From NCBI GenBank assembly GCA_016932965.1, contig JAFGBW010000089.1:1-27548 (forward strand): 27,548 bases of DNA, in the 5' to 3' direction. Positions 3,281 to 23,586 of the stretch are shown here, in pieces (position 1 is the stretch's first letter; every line of letters begins with the position of its first letter). This DNA is from Candidatus Auribacterota bacterium (GTDB taxonomy: Bacteria; Auribacterota; JAFGBW01). The translations under genes were made by a program, and so were the position numbers. The notes under the pieces are model-generated. The model saw nothing but the letters and a program-made list of their open reading frames with translations, did not search any database and had not been told where the DNA came from.

Positions 3281-3931
3281 TCAGACTCCTTTTTGATGTG
3301 GCGGCCAGATATATTTATGCAGCTGCAGCTGCATGCGGACATCCAGATTATCCGCCAGGATCCATTCTGCAAGGATGCGGGGTTCAAGCTCTTGGGACAC
3401 ACAGGACATCAGGATCGTGCCGCAGCGTCCGGAGAGCTGATTTTCCTGAATGAATCGTTTTGAAAATTCGTAATCTTCACGGTTGCCGATGACAAATTTG
3501 ATTTCATCCTTTTTGCTGATATCCTCTATAAGCGCCGGATTGTTTTTATGGCTCATGTTTGATGAAGGCGTTTTGATGTCCACAATATAATGGGCTCCCC
3601 TGGGATAATCCCGGATCAGATGACATCCTGCAGTTTCCACTAATACGGTGTATGGGTGGTCGAGCAGTTCTTTGATCAGGATGCGGCAGCCTGGCTGATC
3701 CAGGGGTTCGCCTCCGGTCACCAGAACATGACTACAGGACATACCGCTGATTTGCATCAGGATTTCCTCGATTGTTTTTTCTTCTCCTTCATGAAACGCA
3801 TAAGCGGTGTCGCAATAACTGCATCGGAGACTGCATCCGGAAAGACGGATAAAAATAAAAGGAATCCCGGCAAAGGAAGATTCCCCCTGAATGCTTTTGA
3901 AGATTTCATTAATTTTCAACCGGATGTTCAT
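3281..3931 (-). CDS. queE: 7-carboxy-7-deazaguanine synthase (radical SAM)
   Basis: QueE converts 6-carboxy-5,6,7,8-tetrahydropterin to 7-carboxy-7-deazaguanine, a step toward queuosine and other 7-deazapurines. The 216-residue protein has the family N-terminus (S-I-Q-G-E-S near residue 13, A-G-I-P, F-I-R-L) followed by the QueE form of the radical-SAM cluster motif, C-x3-C-x2-C at C33, C37 and C40, then D-T-A-Y-A. A G-G-E-P motif lies near residue 74. Length is normal. No queC, queD or queF gene is in the window, so the rest of the pathway must be elsewhere. The ATG at 3931 gives the expected start although no Shine-Dalgarno sequence precedes it. The gene is divergent from the four-cysteine protein and aldolase pair and is followed on the same strand by the kinase. 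Confidence 0.95.
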   Translation of the reverse strand: MNIRLKINEIFKSIQGESSFAGIPFIFIRLSGCSLRCSYCDTAYAFHEGEEKTIEEILMQISGMSCSHVLVTGGEPLDQPGCRILIKELLDHPYTVLVETAGCHLIRDYPRGAHYIVDIKTPSSNMSHKNNPALIEDISKKDEIKFVIGNREDYEFSKRFIQENQLSGRCGTILMSCVSQELEPRILAEWILADNLDVRMQLQLHKYIWPPHQKGV

Positions 3932-5189: not shown

Positions 5190-8100
5190 TCAATAACCCA
5201 GATAAGGAGAGAGCCATCTTTCGGCTGTCTGGACATCCATGTTTTTGCGTGAGGCATAATCCCGGATCTGGTCTTTTCCGAGTTTGCCGATTCCGAAATA
5301 TCTGGAATTGGGATGGGAAAAATAAAGACCTGAAACCGAGGAAGCCGGATTCATGGCGAAATTTTCCGTGAGTGTTACGCCGATATTTTTTTCGGTCTGC
5401 AATAAATCAAAAAGCGTGCGTTTTTCCGTGTGATCAGGACAGGCCGGGTATCCAAATGCAGGACGGATACCTCGGTATTTTTCCGTGAAGATGTCTTCCG
5501 GACCCAGCGTTTCGTCGGGCGCGTATCTCCAGAATGTTTTTCTCACGCGTTCATGCATCTGTTCCGCCAGGGCTTCCGCCAGGCGGTCTGCCAGGATCTG
5601 TGCCAGAATCCGTGTGTATTCGTCATTCTTTTCTCTTAATTTTTGGCGGTAGATTTCCAGGCCGATTCCGCAGGTAACGGTAAAGGCCCCGATATAATCG
5701 ATTTTTCCGGATTCAATGGGGGCAATGAAATCAGCCAGGCACCAATTGGGTTCCTTATCCGGTCTTTTGAACTGCTGGCGGAGAAAATGAAATACCGCAG
5801 CGGTTTTAGATCTCGACTCGTCGGGATAGACTGCAATATCCCCGCCGGTGCTGTTTGCGGGGAAAAGACCTGTCACGGCCCGTGCAATGATGTGCTTGTT
5901 TGAAATGATTTGGTTCAAAAGAGCCTGGGCGTCGTCAAAGACCTTTTTTGCCTGAGGATTTTTCAGGATTTCCGGGTACTTTCCATCCATTTCCCAGGCA
6001 TGAAAAAAGGGTGTCCAGTCGATGAAGGGAATGATTTCTTCCATTTTGATGTCGGAAAAGACGTGGATTCCCTTAAGGGAGGGAACGGGTATGGGATAAG
6101 ATTTCCAGTCAAAACGAAACGCGTTTTTATTAGCTGATTCCAGGGGGAGCAAAGAAAGGCTTTCCTGAATTTTCATGTGTTTTTCACGGATTTGCCGGTA
6201 CTCTTTCTGTATTTTTTCCTCCAGTTTTTTTCTGCTTTCTGTCTGACTGAGGCTGGATGCGATGTTGACGCATTGAGTAGCGTCGCTGACGTGAATACAG
6301 ATGCCACTGTACTGCGGCGCAATCTTCACAGCGGTATGGACCGAGGAGGTGGTTGCTCCCCCGATTAAAAGGGGGATATGGAAACCCTCCCGTTCCATTT
6401 CCTTTGCCACATGGACCATTTCATCCAGAGAGGGGGTGATCAATCCGCTTAGCCCGATCATGTCCGCTTTTTTTTCTCTGGCCGTATTCAGGATGGTTTC
6501 ACAAGGCGTCATGATTCCTGCGTCAATGATTTCAAAATGATTGCAGGCCAGAACAACGCTCACGATATTTTTTCCGATGTCATGGACATCCCCCTTGACT
6601 GTGGCCAGGACAATCCTGGGGGAAGAGGCAGCATCCTTTTGATTTTTCCGGATGAAAGGGGATAAATATTCCACCGCCTTTTTCATGACCCTGGCTGTTT
6701 TTATGACCTGGGGCAGAAACATTTTTCCTTCTCCGAAAAGTTTTCCAACCTCGTTCATGCCTTTCATGAGGGGCCCCTCGATGATTTCCATGGGTGTGGG
6801 GTATTTCAGCCTGGCTTCCTCGACGTCTGATTCAATGAATTGATCCTCGCCCTTGATCAGACTGTGGATCAGGCGTTCATCCACTGGAAGCGTTCTCCAT
6901 TCTTTCCCCTTATTTTCTTTCTGAGGGCCGGAAGACTGGAAAGAAGCCGCCAGGACTGACAGTTTTTCCGTTGCTTCGGATGACCGGTTCAATATGACAT
7001 CTTCCACTGCCTGCAAAAGATCAGCTGGAATGGAGGTGTAGACAAAGAGTTGTCCTGGATTCACGATCCCCATGTCCATGCCGGCCTTGGAGGCGTGGTA
7101 AAGAAAAACGGAATGCATGGCTGAACGAACGGTTTCATTTCCGCGGAAGGCAAAAGACAGGTTGCTGACTCCTCCGCTGATATGGGAAACGGGATATTTG
7201 GCTTTCAGGGTTCGGGCGGCTTCGATGAAATGGACCGCATGGTGATTGTGTTCTTTCATGCCTGTGGCCACGGCAAAGACGTTCAGATCGAAGATGATAT
7301 CCTCGGGAGGGAACTGGATTTTTTCAGTCAAAAGGGAATGGGCGCGTTCGCTGATTGCGATTTTTCTGGCGGCGGTCTCGGCCTGGCCCTGTTCGTCGAC
7401 AGCCATCACGATGACTGCTGCGCCATAGCGCCGGATCAGCCTGGCTCGTTCCAGAAACAGTTCCTCTCCTTCTTTAAGGCTGAGGGAGTTGACAATCCCT
7501 TTCCCCTGAAGACATTTGAGTCCTGCTTCAATCACATGCCATTTTGAGGAGTCGATCATGACCGGCACTCTTGCGATAGAAGGTTCAGAAGCGATGAGGT
7601 TTAAAAAATGGGTCATGGCTTTTTCGGAATCGAGCATGGCCTCATCCATATTGATGTCAATGATCTGCGCGCCGTTTTCCACCTGCTGTTTTGCCACCTG
7701 TAGTGCGGATGTGTAATTGCCATCCAGGATCATTTTGGCGAATTTTTTTGATCCGGTGACGTTCGTACGCTCTCCGATATTCGTGAAATTGGAATCAGGA
7801 CGAAGGGTCAGGATTTCTGTTCCGCACAAACGGGTGTAAAAAGAAGGGCGCGGAGGTGTCCGGGGAGGGATCCCTTCCAGAGCCTCTGCGATTTCACGGA
7901 TAAAATCCGGAGTGGTTCCGCAGCAGCCGCCTGCGATATTCAAGAGGCCTTTTTCAGCGTATTGTTTCATGATTGTGGCCATATGCTCCGGTGTTTCATC
8001 ATATCCGCCCAGGGCGTTGGGAAGGCCTGCATTGGGATGACAGCTTAGAAACCACGGTGCCATCCGGGACAATTCTTCAAGATGAGGCCCCATCTGTTCA

Positions 8101-8822
8101 GCGCCGAGTGTGCAATTGAGTCCCGCTGCCAGAAGCTGGACATGGGAGATGGAGCATAAAAAAGCCTCCAGACTCTGACCCGAATAGATTTTACCGTTAT
8201 CAAGTGTGGCGGAGACGATAACAGGCAGGGATGTTCCTGTTTTTTCAAAAAGGGTCTGTATGGCGAACAGGGCGGCCTTGCAGTTGAGGGTGTCAAACAC
8301 GGTTTCAACCAGGAGGATATCCACTCCCCCTTCCACGAGACCTGAGATCTGTTCCGTATAAGCACAAACGAGGTCATCAAAGGTGACGGCCCGGAAAGCG
8401 GGGTTGCTCACGTCCGGTGAGAAGGAAGCGGTTTTATCCGTTGGGCCGATGGATCCTGCCACATAACGTGGTTTGGACAAGGTGGAAAAACTGGAAGCGG
8501 CTTTTTTGGCGATCCTGGCAGAAGCCGTGTTGATTTCACGGACATGAGACTGCATTTGATACTGGTACGCCGAGACAGAAGTCGCGTTGAAGGTGTTGGT
8601 TTCAATGATGTCTGCTCCGGCTTTCAAATACTCTTCATGGATCTGTTTGATGATATCAGGACGGGTCAGAGAAAGAACATCATTATAACCTTTCAGATCT
8701 TTTTTGTGGCCGGCAAAAAGGCTGCCGCGGAAATCCGTTTCGGAAAGTTTATATTTTTGAATCTGGGTCCCCATGGCCCCGTCCAGGATCAGAATCCGTT
8801 GTTTCATTAATTCGTGAAGCAT
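5190..8822 (-). CDS. metH: Cobalamin-dependent methionine synthase
   Basis: MetH transfers a methyl group from 5-methyltetrahydrofolate to homocysteine by way of methylcobalamin. At 1210 residues it is near the E. coli length (1227) and all modules are present. The homocysteine domain starts D-G-A-M-G-T and carries the zinc cysteines (N-C-T-L-G near 240, G-G-C-C-G near 302). The pterin-binding domain includes [11 protein letters not shown] near 350. A cobalamin cap leads to the B12 site D-V-H-D-I-G-K-N near 745, whose histidine ligates cobalt, and a later S-G-L-I-T-P-S. The C-terminal reactivation domain binds SAM (R-P-A-F-G-Y-P-A-C). The first ATG (8822) is used; a second ATG five codons on is possible, and neither has a clear ribosome site. 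It shares one-carbon/methionine metabolism with metG further on, but is a separate transcription unit. Confidence 0.97.
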
Positions 8823-20217: not shown

Positions 20218-20246
20218 TTGACACCCCCCCTGTCAGGTGGTAAAGT
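20218..20246 (+). promoter_or_regulatory. Strong sigma70-like promoter for the exported protein
   Basis: A consensus TTGACA (20218-20223), exactly 17 bases, then TAAAGT (20241-20246). An inverted repeat TGACA-7-TGTCA (20219-20223 and 20231-20235) overlaps the -35 element and an unusual run of seven C, so a regulator may bind here. This is the clearest promoter in the window. Confidence 0.65.
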
Positions 20247-20312
20247 CATCGGTGGTCATTAAGAAAGGCAAATAATGTGTTTTTAATTGATAAGGAAAAT
20301 AAGGAGGAAACA

Positions 20313-23300
20313 ATGCGAACAAGAAAGTTCATCAACAAGGGAGCGTTGCTGGCGCTCGTATTTTTATTCATGGTATCCGGCAAAGTTTTTGCCGCCGGCA
20401 AGGGGGATGCGCTGAGTGCCAATATTCCTCAGATTTACGGCAAGGCAAAAGACACATTCAAGGGCAGTTCAGACAAAACCGTCATCCACATTCAGGATGC
20501 GCACGGCAACGTGGAATCCCAGGAGAACATCCAGGCTATCATCAAAAGCCTTGAGGACCAGGGAAAAAAGGTTGATGCCATCATGGATGAAGGCGGCTGG
20601 CTGGAATACGAGACCAAGGAAATCTTCAAGGATTTCAGCGCTGAAGATAAGACCCTTCTTGGTGACTGGCTGACAAAATACGGCCTGATTCACGGTGCCG
20701 ACCGTGCGGTCATTTTTGACAATCCGGACATGCCTATTTACGGTGCAGAAGATTATGCTCTTTATCGTGAAAACGGCAAAGTCATGAAGGAAGCCTGCAG
20801 TAACAAGAAAGACTCAATGGCCATCACAGAGAAAATAAAAGGGGTGATGGAAGCCATTAAACTGAAACTGTTTGATGAAGCGTCCCGCAATTTCCTCCAG
20901 GCTGTGGATGATTTCAATGCAGACAGGATCACCCTGACGGCATTTTCCAAGACATTGCAGACAGAGGCTGACAAGGCCGGCGTGAAATGGGCGAATTACA
21001 ATAATTTCAACAAGGTTGCTGAAAGCATCACTTTGGAAGATTCCATTGATTTCGCGAAAATTGACCGTGAAAGACTGGATCTGACAGATGAAATTCAGGC
21101 CAAAGCGGACAAGAAAGTCGCGGATGAAATCGTGACAGAATCCTTGAATTACCGTCTGGGCAAACTGAGCGCCTCTGATTATTACAATGCGCTTTTGAAA
21201 AAGGCTGAAACAGCGAAAGCAGACATGACGAAATACGGCAACGTGCAGAAATATGCTCAACTGGTCAATCTTTATGCCGGGATCAATGACGACGCCTTGT
21301 TTGCCGAACTGAAAAATCTGGAAAAGGAAATCAAATCCAAGCTGTTTAAAAGCGATGCTCAGATCAATTTTGACAAATATTCCACCAACCTGGACATTCT
21401 GAACAAGATGATCGGCCTGCAGATGACGGTTACGGACCTGGCTTATTACAAGGACAACAAGGCTGAAGTGTCCGCGGCAAAGATGATCGCGTTTTTAAAG
21501 GACCAGGCCAAGACGCTGAATTTGGCTGTGGACCTGCAGGATTCCCTGGCCCAGGTGGACAAAAAGCTTTCGGCAAATGAGAAGTTTTACGAACTGGCCC
21601 TGAAAAGAGACGAAATCATGATTGAAAAGACCCTGGCCATGATGGATGAAAAGGGTTTTAAAACAGTTGTGCTGGTTGCAGGCGGATTCCATACAGAAGG
21701 TATCACCAAGGCATTGAAAGCCAAGGCGATTTCCCACATGATCGTGACCCCGAGGATCACGAATCCAGATGCGCCGAACTACTGGCTGCAGAATTCCACA
21801 GGTGAGGAAACCGAAGCCACGAAGCTGTTAAAGGCCAATGGTCTGGATTATGCGACGTTGTATACGAGGGCAACTCCACCGTTGTCGACACCAACTCCGC
21901 CTGGTACTGAACCTGTTACCCCTCCTAGGAAAAGCGAAACTCTTAAATTGACGGCTGATATTTTAAGACGGGCTGAAACCGAAACAGTAGCGGCAGTCGG
22001 ACAGGCAGATATGGACAATGTTAAAGCCGCTGTCAAAGCTTCGGATGCTTCCCAGGTTCCGGAATATCAGGCAGGCTTGGCGGCTATTCAGGCTGGTGTT
22101 TCTCCTGAATTTGCTGCAGTTCCCATGAGGCTTGAGGTGACAGATGGGCTTGGTAATGATCCGGCTTATGACGCTTTGTATTATAATATCAATAATACCG
22201 TTAATCCTTCTATCAGACGTTGGGAAGTCATCGATGGAAAACTGACTTTGGTTTTGACCATGACTCGGGCCCAGGTTTTACTGGCCGGACAGATGGCGGC
22301 ACTCGGGGTGCCTGTTACCGCTAATATCGGTTCAACCTTAGGGTTGTCCGAGACGTCAGAAGCGATAGCGGAACTCAGGCTGTTGACAGGACAAGTTGAT
22401 GCAGTGGGTAGATTGTTAGCCGGACAGGCAACGGAAGCTGATGTGGCAGCCATTCAAGCTGGATTAGCCGCCCTCACTCCCAAGGCGGTCAGCGACAGCA
22501 ATATTGAAGCCTTGAAATCGCTGCCCAATGTGCACCATGTCCTATTGGAAGCGATGGAACTACTCAATGGGATAAGGCAGAAAGCCGAGTTCAAGGGGAC
22601 TCCGGCATTTGATTCATTGGCGCAAATGGTGCTGCAGGCCGTTATGGGTAATGAAGTGCTGCAGGCTCTGCCTGCAGACAGGACGCTGAAGGCAGAGACA
22701 GCCAGAGCAGGACAGGAAGCGCTGTTTACGGCATTCAGGAATGCCGCGTTGCTGGCCCTGATTCGCGGCGGCAATAACTATGTTGAAAGCGTATTCACTC
22801 AGACTCAGAAGGCGATAGTGCAGAACATTCTCGATGCTTTCAATAGTGATGTGACCGTTATTCGTGAAGATGCTTCTGATTATAAGCTTCTGACAGACGA
22901 GGCTGAAGTGGAAAGATACGTCTCCGCGACTCCTGGTGCTCCTTTTGGAATCAGCAAGGAATTGCTGGCCAAAAAGTCCATTGTGCGGGCGGTTAACGAT
23001 ACCGCGCTCGCAGAGCAGGCATTAAAAAGATATTTTAATGTCGTGAAGGTGGATAATATCGATAGTATTGATGATGGCCTGGAAGCTGCCATGGCGGCCA
23101 ATGCGACCAATACGGTCATATTGATTTCCAACAAAGTTATTGAAGCAGCAAAGGATATATTAGCGAAAAAAGGACCGGTCAAGGTGTTCCTGACCTCCGG
23201 ATCACAGGCTCAGAAGATTTTGATGGCCAAAGACAAGGGAAAAACCAATGTTGCAGACAGGACCTACTTTTCTATTGATCATTGGACCATGGATACAGCG

Positions 23301-23501
23301 TTGATTGGTTTTGCCCAGAAAGCAATCGTAGGCAATGCTGAGGCGGCTCAATTCATCGCGGATACGAACCTGTTTGAGACGCAGGATGTGACCACCATCC
23401 TGGCTGGCTTGCAGGAAGGTAATCTGCCAAAAGTGGCTCCTCAGTTACAGGCCTTGTTCGATGCCATGTCTGTGGCTGCTGTCTTCGGAGTGGCTGCTTA
23501 A
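20313..23501 (+). CDS. Large exported protein with ChaN/TIKI-like N-terminal motifs, function unknown
   Basis: The 1062-residue protein starts at ATG 20313, five bases after AAGGAGG (20301-20307); an upstream GTG at 20277 is unsupported. A signal peptide (basic start, hydrophobic 11-22, likely cleavage after V-F-A at 27) sends it out of the cytoplasm. The N-terminal half has H-I-Q-D-A-H (59-64) with Q70, D-E-G-G (92-95) and V-A-G-G-F-H-T-E-G-I (455-464). This His/Glu/GxxH spacing recalls haem-binding ChaN, TraB/TIKI proteases and EreA-type esterases, but the match is by eye. Two long helical stretches lie between the motifs. A proline-threonine linker (about 520-540) separates an alanine-rich C-terminal half with one alternating beta-alpha segment near 890-1000. 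It has one cysteine, no lipobox and no membrane anchor. Strong signals on both sides suggest high expression. I recognise the type from Omnitrophota but know of no assigned function. Confidence 0.85.
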   Translation: MRTRKFINKGALLALVFLFMVSGKVFAAGKGDALSANIPQIYGKAKDTFKGSSDKTVIHIQDAHGNVESQENIQAIIKSLEDQGKKVDAIMDEGGWLEYETKEIFKDFSAEDKTLLGDWLTKYGLIHGADRAVIFDNPDMPIYGAEDYALYRENGKVMKEACSNKKDSMAITEKIKGVMEAIKLKLFDEASRNFLQAVDDFNADRITLTAFSKTLQTEADKAGVKWANYNNFNKVAESITLEDSIDFAKIDRERLDLTDEIQAKADKKVADEIVTESLNYRLGKLSASDYYNALLKKAETAKADMTKYGNVQKYAQLVNLYAGINDDALFAELKNLEKEIKSKLFKSDAQINFDKYSTNLDILNKMIGLQMTVTDLAYYKDNKAEVSAAKMIAFLKDQAKTLNLAVDLQDSLAQVDKKLSANEKFYELALKRDEIMIEKTLAMMDEKGFKTVVLVAGGFHTEGITKALKAKAISHMIVTPRITNPDAPNYWLQNSTGEETEATKLLKANGLDYATLYTRATPPLSTPTPPGTEPVTPPRKSETLKLTADILRRAETETVAAVGQADMDNVKAAVKASDASQVPEYQAGLAAIQAGVSPEFAAVPMRLEVTDGLGNDPAYDALYYNINNTVNPSIRRWEVIDGKLTLVLTMTRAQVLLAGQMAALGVPVTANIGSTLGLSETSEAIAELRLLTGQVDAVGRLLAGQATEADVAAIQAGLAALTPKAVSDSNIEALKSLPNVHHVLLEAMELLNGIRQKAEFKGTPAFDSLAQMVLQAVMGNEVLQALPADRTLKAETARAGQEALFTAFRNAALLALIRGGNNYVESVFTQTQKAIVQNILDAFNSDVTVIREDASDYKLLTDEAEVERYVSATPGAPFGISKELLAKKSIVRAVNDTALAEQALKRYFNVVKVDNIDSIDDGLEAAMAANATNTVILISNKVIEAAKDILAKKGPVKVFLTSGSQAQKILMAKDKGKTNVADRTYFSIDHWTMDTALIGFAQKAIVGNAEAAQFIADTNLFETQDVTTILAGLQEGNLPKVAPQLQALFDAMSVAAVFGVAA

Positions 23502-23521
23502 ACCATTACACAAATTACTGT

Positions 23522-23543
23522 GGAAATGCCTGCGGGCATTTCC
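23522..23543 (+). terminator. Proximal hairpin of the double terminator
   Basis: GGAAATGCC-TGCG-GGCATTTCC, a perfect 9-bp stem 20 bases after the stop of the exported-protein gene, without a T-tract. Confidence 0.55.
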
Positions 23544-23550
23544 CAAACCC

Positions 23551-23586
23551 AAAAGCCGGAAGGAGAAATCCTTCCGGCTTTTTTTT
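23551..23586 (+). terminator. Intrinsic terminator with GAAA tetraloop
   Basis: AAAAGCCGGAAGGA pairs exactly with TCCTTCCGGCTTTT (14 bp) around a GAAA loop and runs into eight T. A textbook intrinsic terminator for the exported-protein gene. Confidence 0.9.

Follow-up and report, generated by a model that had tools for sequence, protein, structure and literature searches.

A divergent TIKI-superfamily-like head domain at the front of exported proteins of Auribacterota and Omnitrophota

A gene for an exported protein of 1062 residues lies within a 27,548-nucleotide stretch of DNA from a Candidatus Auribacterota bacterium (contig JAFGBW010000089.1; the whole stretch is called the window here), and the N-terminal half of its product, referred to below as the head, has a fold that is well supported as a member of the TIKI superfamily. 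This superfamily contains TIKI, TraB/GumN, erythromycin esterase, ChaN and RRSP/HopBA1; among its members are proteases that inactivate Wnt, esterases that inactivate antibiotics, and toxin proteases. Judged by its sequence, the head appears to be a previously unlisted and very divergent family of this known superfamily, placed in a new architecture. An original prediction, made from the letters of the window alone, had described the exported protein and had likened the order of its motifs to the layout of ChaN, TIKI and EreA. The open frame, the signal-peptide N-terminus and the motifs HIQDAH (residues 59-64), DEGG (92-95) and GGFH (457-460) are all found where they were predicted, and the superfamily layout is now backed by invariant motifs, a structural model and the ranking of structural alignments.

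The alignment of relatives contains 104 heads (101 distinct at 90% identity; three pairs are one gene reached by two routes), with a median pairwise identity of 28.7% and a closest match to the window head of 33%. Despite this divergence, H64, E93, G144, R432, G457, G458, H460 and P480 are identical in all 104 sequences; D62, Q70, Y151 and F459 are each kept in 103 (99%), and F425 and Y426 in 97%. Conservation of these motifs lies far above the level of chance. Of the four residues for which invariance had been proposed, H64, E93 and H460 are invariant and H59 is not, being His in 77 of the 104. A large helical stretch does lie between the motifs, as had been claimed, but it spans about 255 residues and not about 360. 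Its nearly constant length in all 104 relatives argues for a built-in subdomain rather than a loosely inserted segment. The window head clusters with other Auribacterota heads in a tree.

The AlphaFold2 model of the domain, calculated with 30 input sequences, has a mean predicted local distance difference test score (pLDDT) of 86.5 and a predicted template modelling score (pTM) of 0.80. Its strands lie at residues 43-49, 56-62, 89-92, 142-144, 451-457 and 474-480, with helices alternating between them. In particular, D62/H64, E93, G144, G457-H460 and P480 fall at or just past the ends of model strands and R432 is located on the model helix 410-447, so that D62, H64, E93 and H460 are predicted to meet in one pocket, projecting from the C-terminal ends of successive strands. 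The head shares with the TIKI superfamily a parallel β-sheet core flanked by helices (in the model), the order and spacing of the 2His/2Glu set (through D62, H64, E93 and H460), and a conserved Arg ahead of GxxH, as in TraB proteins of the same phylum. When VIA-align 2 was applied to the candidates from Foldseek (760 chains aligned), ChaN (2g5g) ranked first with a Z of 8.7 over 179 residues; HopBA1 (5t09) gave a Z of 8.6, EreC (6xcq) a Z of 8.5 with a root-mean-square deviation of 3.3 over 154, and the Ere-like protein 2rad a Z of 8.0. Four of the five best alignments are therefore to the TIKI superfamily and one falls outside it; the single Z values are modest, and what counts is that the four agree.

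Profile-profile comparison of the insert-free core with Ere and TraB proteins of the same phylum (hhalign) gives independent matches at both ends of the domain, precisely on the catalytic motifs. Against the Ere proteins, the segment from H64 to E93 aligns onto their H..E pair (P 0.0064), and against the TraB proteins, R432 together with GGFHxxGI aligns onto R-N together with GGGHxxGI (P 0.011); with the helical insert alone, P is 0.19 (Ere) and 0.9 (TraB). Matches to DUF1722 and PAH_ZNF598 vanish with the insert-free core and were dismissed as helix-driven, and EF-hand/calmodulin matches from a profile search of solved-structure sequences were dismissed as chance matches within the helical insert. 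PF04187 (ChaN) is detected below cut-off in eight of 30 members (best 5e-4), including the window protein, where a partial match over residues 410-462 scores 17.6 bits and does not reach the curated cut-off of 27.7. PF01963 (TraB/PrgY/GumN) has no match in the window protein and is missing from the families recorded for the relatives, and PF05139 (erythromycin esterase) has no match for the head; in the protein's own genome, neither of these two families was found. Because no Pfam or NCBIfam model scores above cut-off on the domain, the head is assigned to a new family of the known superfamily and is not taken for a ChaN, TraB or Ere protein.

Several points weigh against this assignment or against an enzymatic function. 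The shared pocket is predicted from the positions of strands and not from distances. A Foldseek search of the PDB with the domain model returned nothing significant (best E 0.29) because long helices dominate it, and its coiled-coil and pore-toxin helix matches (E >= 0.29) were dismissed as helix-driven; the fold search that had been suggested thus recovered ChaN, HopBA1, EreC and the Ere-like protein through VIA-align but not through Foldseek alone. A Z of about 8 barely exceeds the range reached without true relatives, all Pfam matches are sub-threshold, and the first acidic residue of the motif is an Asp (D62) where the superfamily has Glu. Finally, ChaN binds haem, and an invariant pocket therefore need not be catalytic. 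The weak sequence scores and the Foldseek result would be compatible with convergence, that is, with a Rossmann-like sheet carrying a few His and Glu residues in a domain of another fold. However, the concentration of the top structural alignments in one superfamily, out of so many chains, and the separate sequence matches on both catalytic motifs argue against convergence, which is considered highly improbable.

The favoured explanation, held with about even confidence, is that the head is an exported hydrolase, either a peptidase or an esterase, of a new TIKI-superfamily family. It draws on acidic, His and Arg residues that are strictly kept and match a known catalytic set, on the export of the protein, and on the retention of the motif in free-standing members. 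The protein carries a signal for export by the Sec route, and residues 38-510 are modelled as a parallel-stranded α/β core, in which D62-x-H64, E93 and GGFH460 lie where strands end and R432 lies on the final long helix. The helical insert, which runs from the fourth strand to the R432 helix, may serve as a lid or as a substrate-binding lobe. If the Ere enzymes and RRSP are a guide, water would be activated by H64/E93 and H460 for the hydrolysis of a peptide, ester or amide bond, and the reaction would take place outside the cytoplasm, perhaps at the cell surface or on neighbouring cells. A Pro-rich linker joins the head to a second half that is unrelated to it, and in relatives the head is found alone or ahead of bodies of up to about 24,000 residues. 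A different function, in which the head would not be an enzyme but would bind a ligand or haem as a scaffold, as ChaN does, with a metal or cofactor held by the His/Glu set, would agree with the top rank of ChaN among the structural matches and with PF04187 being the sole superfamily profile that matches. Nevertheless, RRSP and Ere have a catalytic 2His/2Glu set whose spacing the motif fits, and a mere binder would be expected to keep fewer residues at 100% when overall identity is 29%; a scaffold is considered unlikely.

Two further copies are present in the genome to which the window belongs (3.1 Mb in 300 contigs, 93% complete; the window is its contig G000:C151). One is free-standing, about 530 residues long and intact-looking, and is split over two contig ends (G000:C163:3-1190 and G000:C70:13840-14284). 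The other (G000:C246:5949-6884; L004, L193) is a shortened copy in a 361-codon frame from which about half of the helical insert is missing; its H64 is replaced by Pro and its GGFH is lost. This pattern suggests that the two motifs were lost together from this copy, which is possibly a natural pseudo-enzyme.

Within the phylum, the head (residues about 35-510) is found in nine of 44 genomes and nine of 29 genera, amplified to between 2 and 43 head matches per genome (one domain may split into two matches). A scan of 84,980 species genomes with a 7-sequence alignment shows at least 509 relatives encoded among the 587 pattern matches listed. All but two of the best 80 matches listed belong by name or genome to Omnitrophota or Auribacterota. 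By title, the exceptions are a contig of 3.4 kb from a 'Clostridia' metagenome-assembled genome and a 'PVC group bacterium' of Bugula neritina. As a single query against genome contigs, the whole 1062-residue protein confirmed nothing, because members are only about 30% identical and its back half is unique. The head is consistently N-terminal: at 77 loci with a stop in view it starts a median of 69 codons (maximum 138) past the upstream stop, and a hydrophobic core of signal-peptide grade is present in 69 of 75 relatives' N-termini, compared with 6% of control segments. What follows the head varies greatly. For the 137 head-bearing frames listed in Auribacterota, the median length is 2,390 codons; 20 of them have at least 5,000, and the longest has 24,620; among 67 bodies compared, the largest connected group has 21 members and most others are single, so that the bodies are mostly unrelated. 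On the closed Omnitrophota chromosome CP070780.1, the head is carried by six frames of 1,134-5,352 codons and is absent from other long frames (10.6 kb masked). The head is frequent on giants, but not universal. Moreover, some members end within 6-121 residues of the domain with the full motif kept; the motif is complete in the six nearly free-standing members (L041, L056, L072, L074, L092 and L112), indicating that the head needs no body.

In some modular exported proteins, conserved heads play processing or sorting roles. The present head might likewise be a module of a giant-protein system that folds first outside the membrane and then, acting in cis or in trans, cleaves, anchors or sorts the polyprotein. 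Such a role would suit the joining of one conserved head to many unrelated bodies within one genome, and its position directly after the signal peptide with catalytic-type residues intact. It fits less well with the existence of free-standing members that have the full motif, with the genome of the window, in which no giant is known as a cleavage partner, and with the closed genome G044, in which several open reading frames (ORFs) of 2,400-4,500 codons have no head (some N-termini may be masked). A processing module is regarded as possible but on the unlikely side. The same tentative standing is given to a wider proposal, in which the giant-protein systems of both Omnitrophota and Auribacterota would share one catalytically intact TIKI-type head as their operating module. 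This head would process, sort or deploy dozens of exported proteins per cell. Their bodies would be built of domains without relation to each other, among them housekeeping enzymes in exported form (phosphoglycerate kinase, phosphofructokinase, phosphoglucomutase, SecA-like).

Several head-bearing exported ORFs (L047, 11062-18501; L045, 11474-19960; L035, L037, L064, L093 and others) contain modules in their bodies that resemble cytoplasm-type enzymes. These are phosphoglycerate kinase (E 3.6e-67), phosphofructokinase, glucose-6-phosphate isomerase, transaldolase, phosphoglucomutase/phosphomannomutase, nucleotidyl transferase, SecA DEAD, protein kinase and glycosyl transferase 2. By eye, active-site motifs are kept in several of them (TGSHNP and DGDSDR for phosphoglucomutase, TIDGD and MGRDNGYLA for phosphofructokinase, GGGDS for phosphoglycerate kinase). 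The phosphoglycerate kinase-like module of L047 is 31% identical to the ordinary 399-codon enzyme of the same genome (L117), with the conserved motifs partly kept and with insertions. SecA-like domains have reportedly been noted in giant genes in a preprint on that subject.

The C-terminal half of the window protein has no match in the 44 phylum genomes or among the bodies fetched, and no Pfam model scores above cut-off on it (best AAA_2, E 0.014). A single-sequence model has a pLDDT of 37. Consequently, no fold is claimed for this half.

The features of the gene are collected in Table 1. Two starts are available, GTG 20277 (1074 codons) and ATG 20313 (1062 codons), and the latter was chosen because the Shine-Dalgarno sequence and the signal peptide fit it; the stop codon is TAA at 23499-23501. 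Outside the signal peptide, which is of textbook form, hydrophobicity scoring reveals no membrane-like segment. The strong ribosome-binding site that had been predicted is present. The predicted consensus promoter exists as a site, but the region is not enriched in sites of this kind (7 found, compared with 5.8 +/- 2.9 in shuffles). Of the predicted double terminator, the distal hairpin with its T run is convincing, and the proximal one has no T run. The gene stands alone, flanked by metG and by a response-regulator gene, both on the minus strand.

Table 1. Positions in the window of the gene, its signals and the parts of its product
Feature	Position	Strand	Details
Promoter-like site TTGACA-17-TAAAGT, extended -10 TG	20218..20246	+	10/12 matches
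Ribosome-binding site AAGGAGG	20301..20307	+	5 nt upstream of ATG 20313; read in sequence
Gene for exported protein, TIKI-superfamily-like head and unrelated C-terminal half	20313..23501	+	1062 residues
Signal peptide, residues 1-27, MRTRKFINKGALLALVFLFMVSGKVFA then A (cleavage V-F-A/A)	20313..20393	+	sequence, hydrophobic core score
TIKI/Ere/ChaN-like domain, residues 38-510	20424..21842	+	alignment, model, structural and profile comparison
D62-A63-H64, first acidic residue and first catalytic-type His	20496..20504	+	D 103/104, H 104/104
E93, catalytic-type Glu 29 residues past H64	20589..20591	+	104/104; aligns with Ere family Glu
All-helical insert, residues 153-407	20769..21533	+	251-267 residues across 104 relatives
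R432 within F-Y-x2-A-x-K-R-D motif	21606..21608	+	104/104; aligns with TraB R-N motif
G457-G458-F459-H460, second catalytic-type His (GxxH)	21681..21692	+	aligns with TraB GGGH motif
Pro/Thr-rich linker, residues 520-545	21870..21947	+	sequence
C-terminal half, residues 546-1062	21948..23498	+	without relatives in genomes and bodies searched
Hairpin GGAAATGCC-TGCG-GGCATTTCC 3' of stop codon, without T run	23522..23543	+	read in sequence
Intrinsic terminator, perfect 14-pair stem and T run	23551..23582	+	

Elsewhere in the window, a 706-codon ORF at the contig edge (4-2124, plus strand) has a C-terminal F5/8 type C (discoidin) domain, a domain also described in giant ORFs of Omnitrophota (PMC10066038). 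On the minus strand, a small radical SAM protein (3281-3931) and a full-length B12-dependent methionine synthase (5190-8822) are ordinary.

Candidatus Auribacterota is placed within the Planctomycetes-Verrucomicrobia-Chlamydiae (PVC) group. Giant ORFs are documented in the literature (PMC10066038, PMC12057145, PMC11573180). For Omnitrophota, giants are described as having mixed domain content (PMC12419801), and as having few annotated domains and poor conservation, so that their function is hard to assess (PMC10066038). In the accessible portions of the literature on Omnitrophota/PVC giant ORFs, no report of a TIKI-like head was found. A recognisable and probably catalytic front domain would give many giant proteins a common feature that can be tested on a fragment of about 480 residues. 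The giant proteins of two little-known phyla would thereby gain a first common, probably enzymatic handle, and the TIKI superfamily a divergent and strongly amplified branch.

Comparison with known systems places the head close to several members of the superfamily while equating it with none. Like the head, the Ere family (PF05139; EreC 6xcq, 2rad/Bcr135) has an α/β core and a His followed 28-29 residues later by a Glu; in contrast, Ere proteins of the same phylum have AHNxH in place of GGFH, and the head differs from Ere in its signal peptide, its 255-residue helical insert and its fused bodies. ChaN (Cofac_haem_bdg, PF04187; 2g5g) resembles the head in structure and, below threshold, in a profile match over R432-H460, but its Pfam model has 213 positions without the large helical insert that the head carries. 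With TraB/PrgY/GumN and TIKI (PF01963), the head shares an R-N motif (R-D in the head) followed in both by GxxH and G-I; same-phylum TraB proteins open with GSxH where the head has DxH, and insert and architecture also differ. The RRSP of MARTX toxins has, as does the head, a 2His/2Glu set in which an acidic residue precedes the first His by two positions (PMC6254334). In RRSP, E3900, H3902, E3930 and H4030 are all required, and H85/E113 are the residues used by the Ere-like Bcr135; the resulting spacing of -2, 0, +28 compares with -2, 0, +29 in the head, with GxxH late (PMC6254334). RRSP also sits in a very large exported protein, as many heads do. However, RRSP and HopBA1 are delivered into host cells and RRSP is internal to its toxin, whereas the head belongs to uncultured environmental bacteria and directly follows a Sec signal at the N-terminus. 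Finally, many relatives of the head stand at the front of ORFs, up to 24,620 codons long, like the giants of Omnitrophota (PMC10066038) and the large proteins of the PVC group (PMC12057145, PMC12419801), for which few annotated domains are reported; the ORF in the window, at 3.2 kb and only 1062 residues, is below the size of more than 20 kb of an Omnitrophota-type giant ORF.

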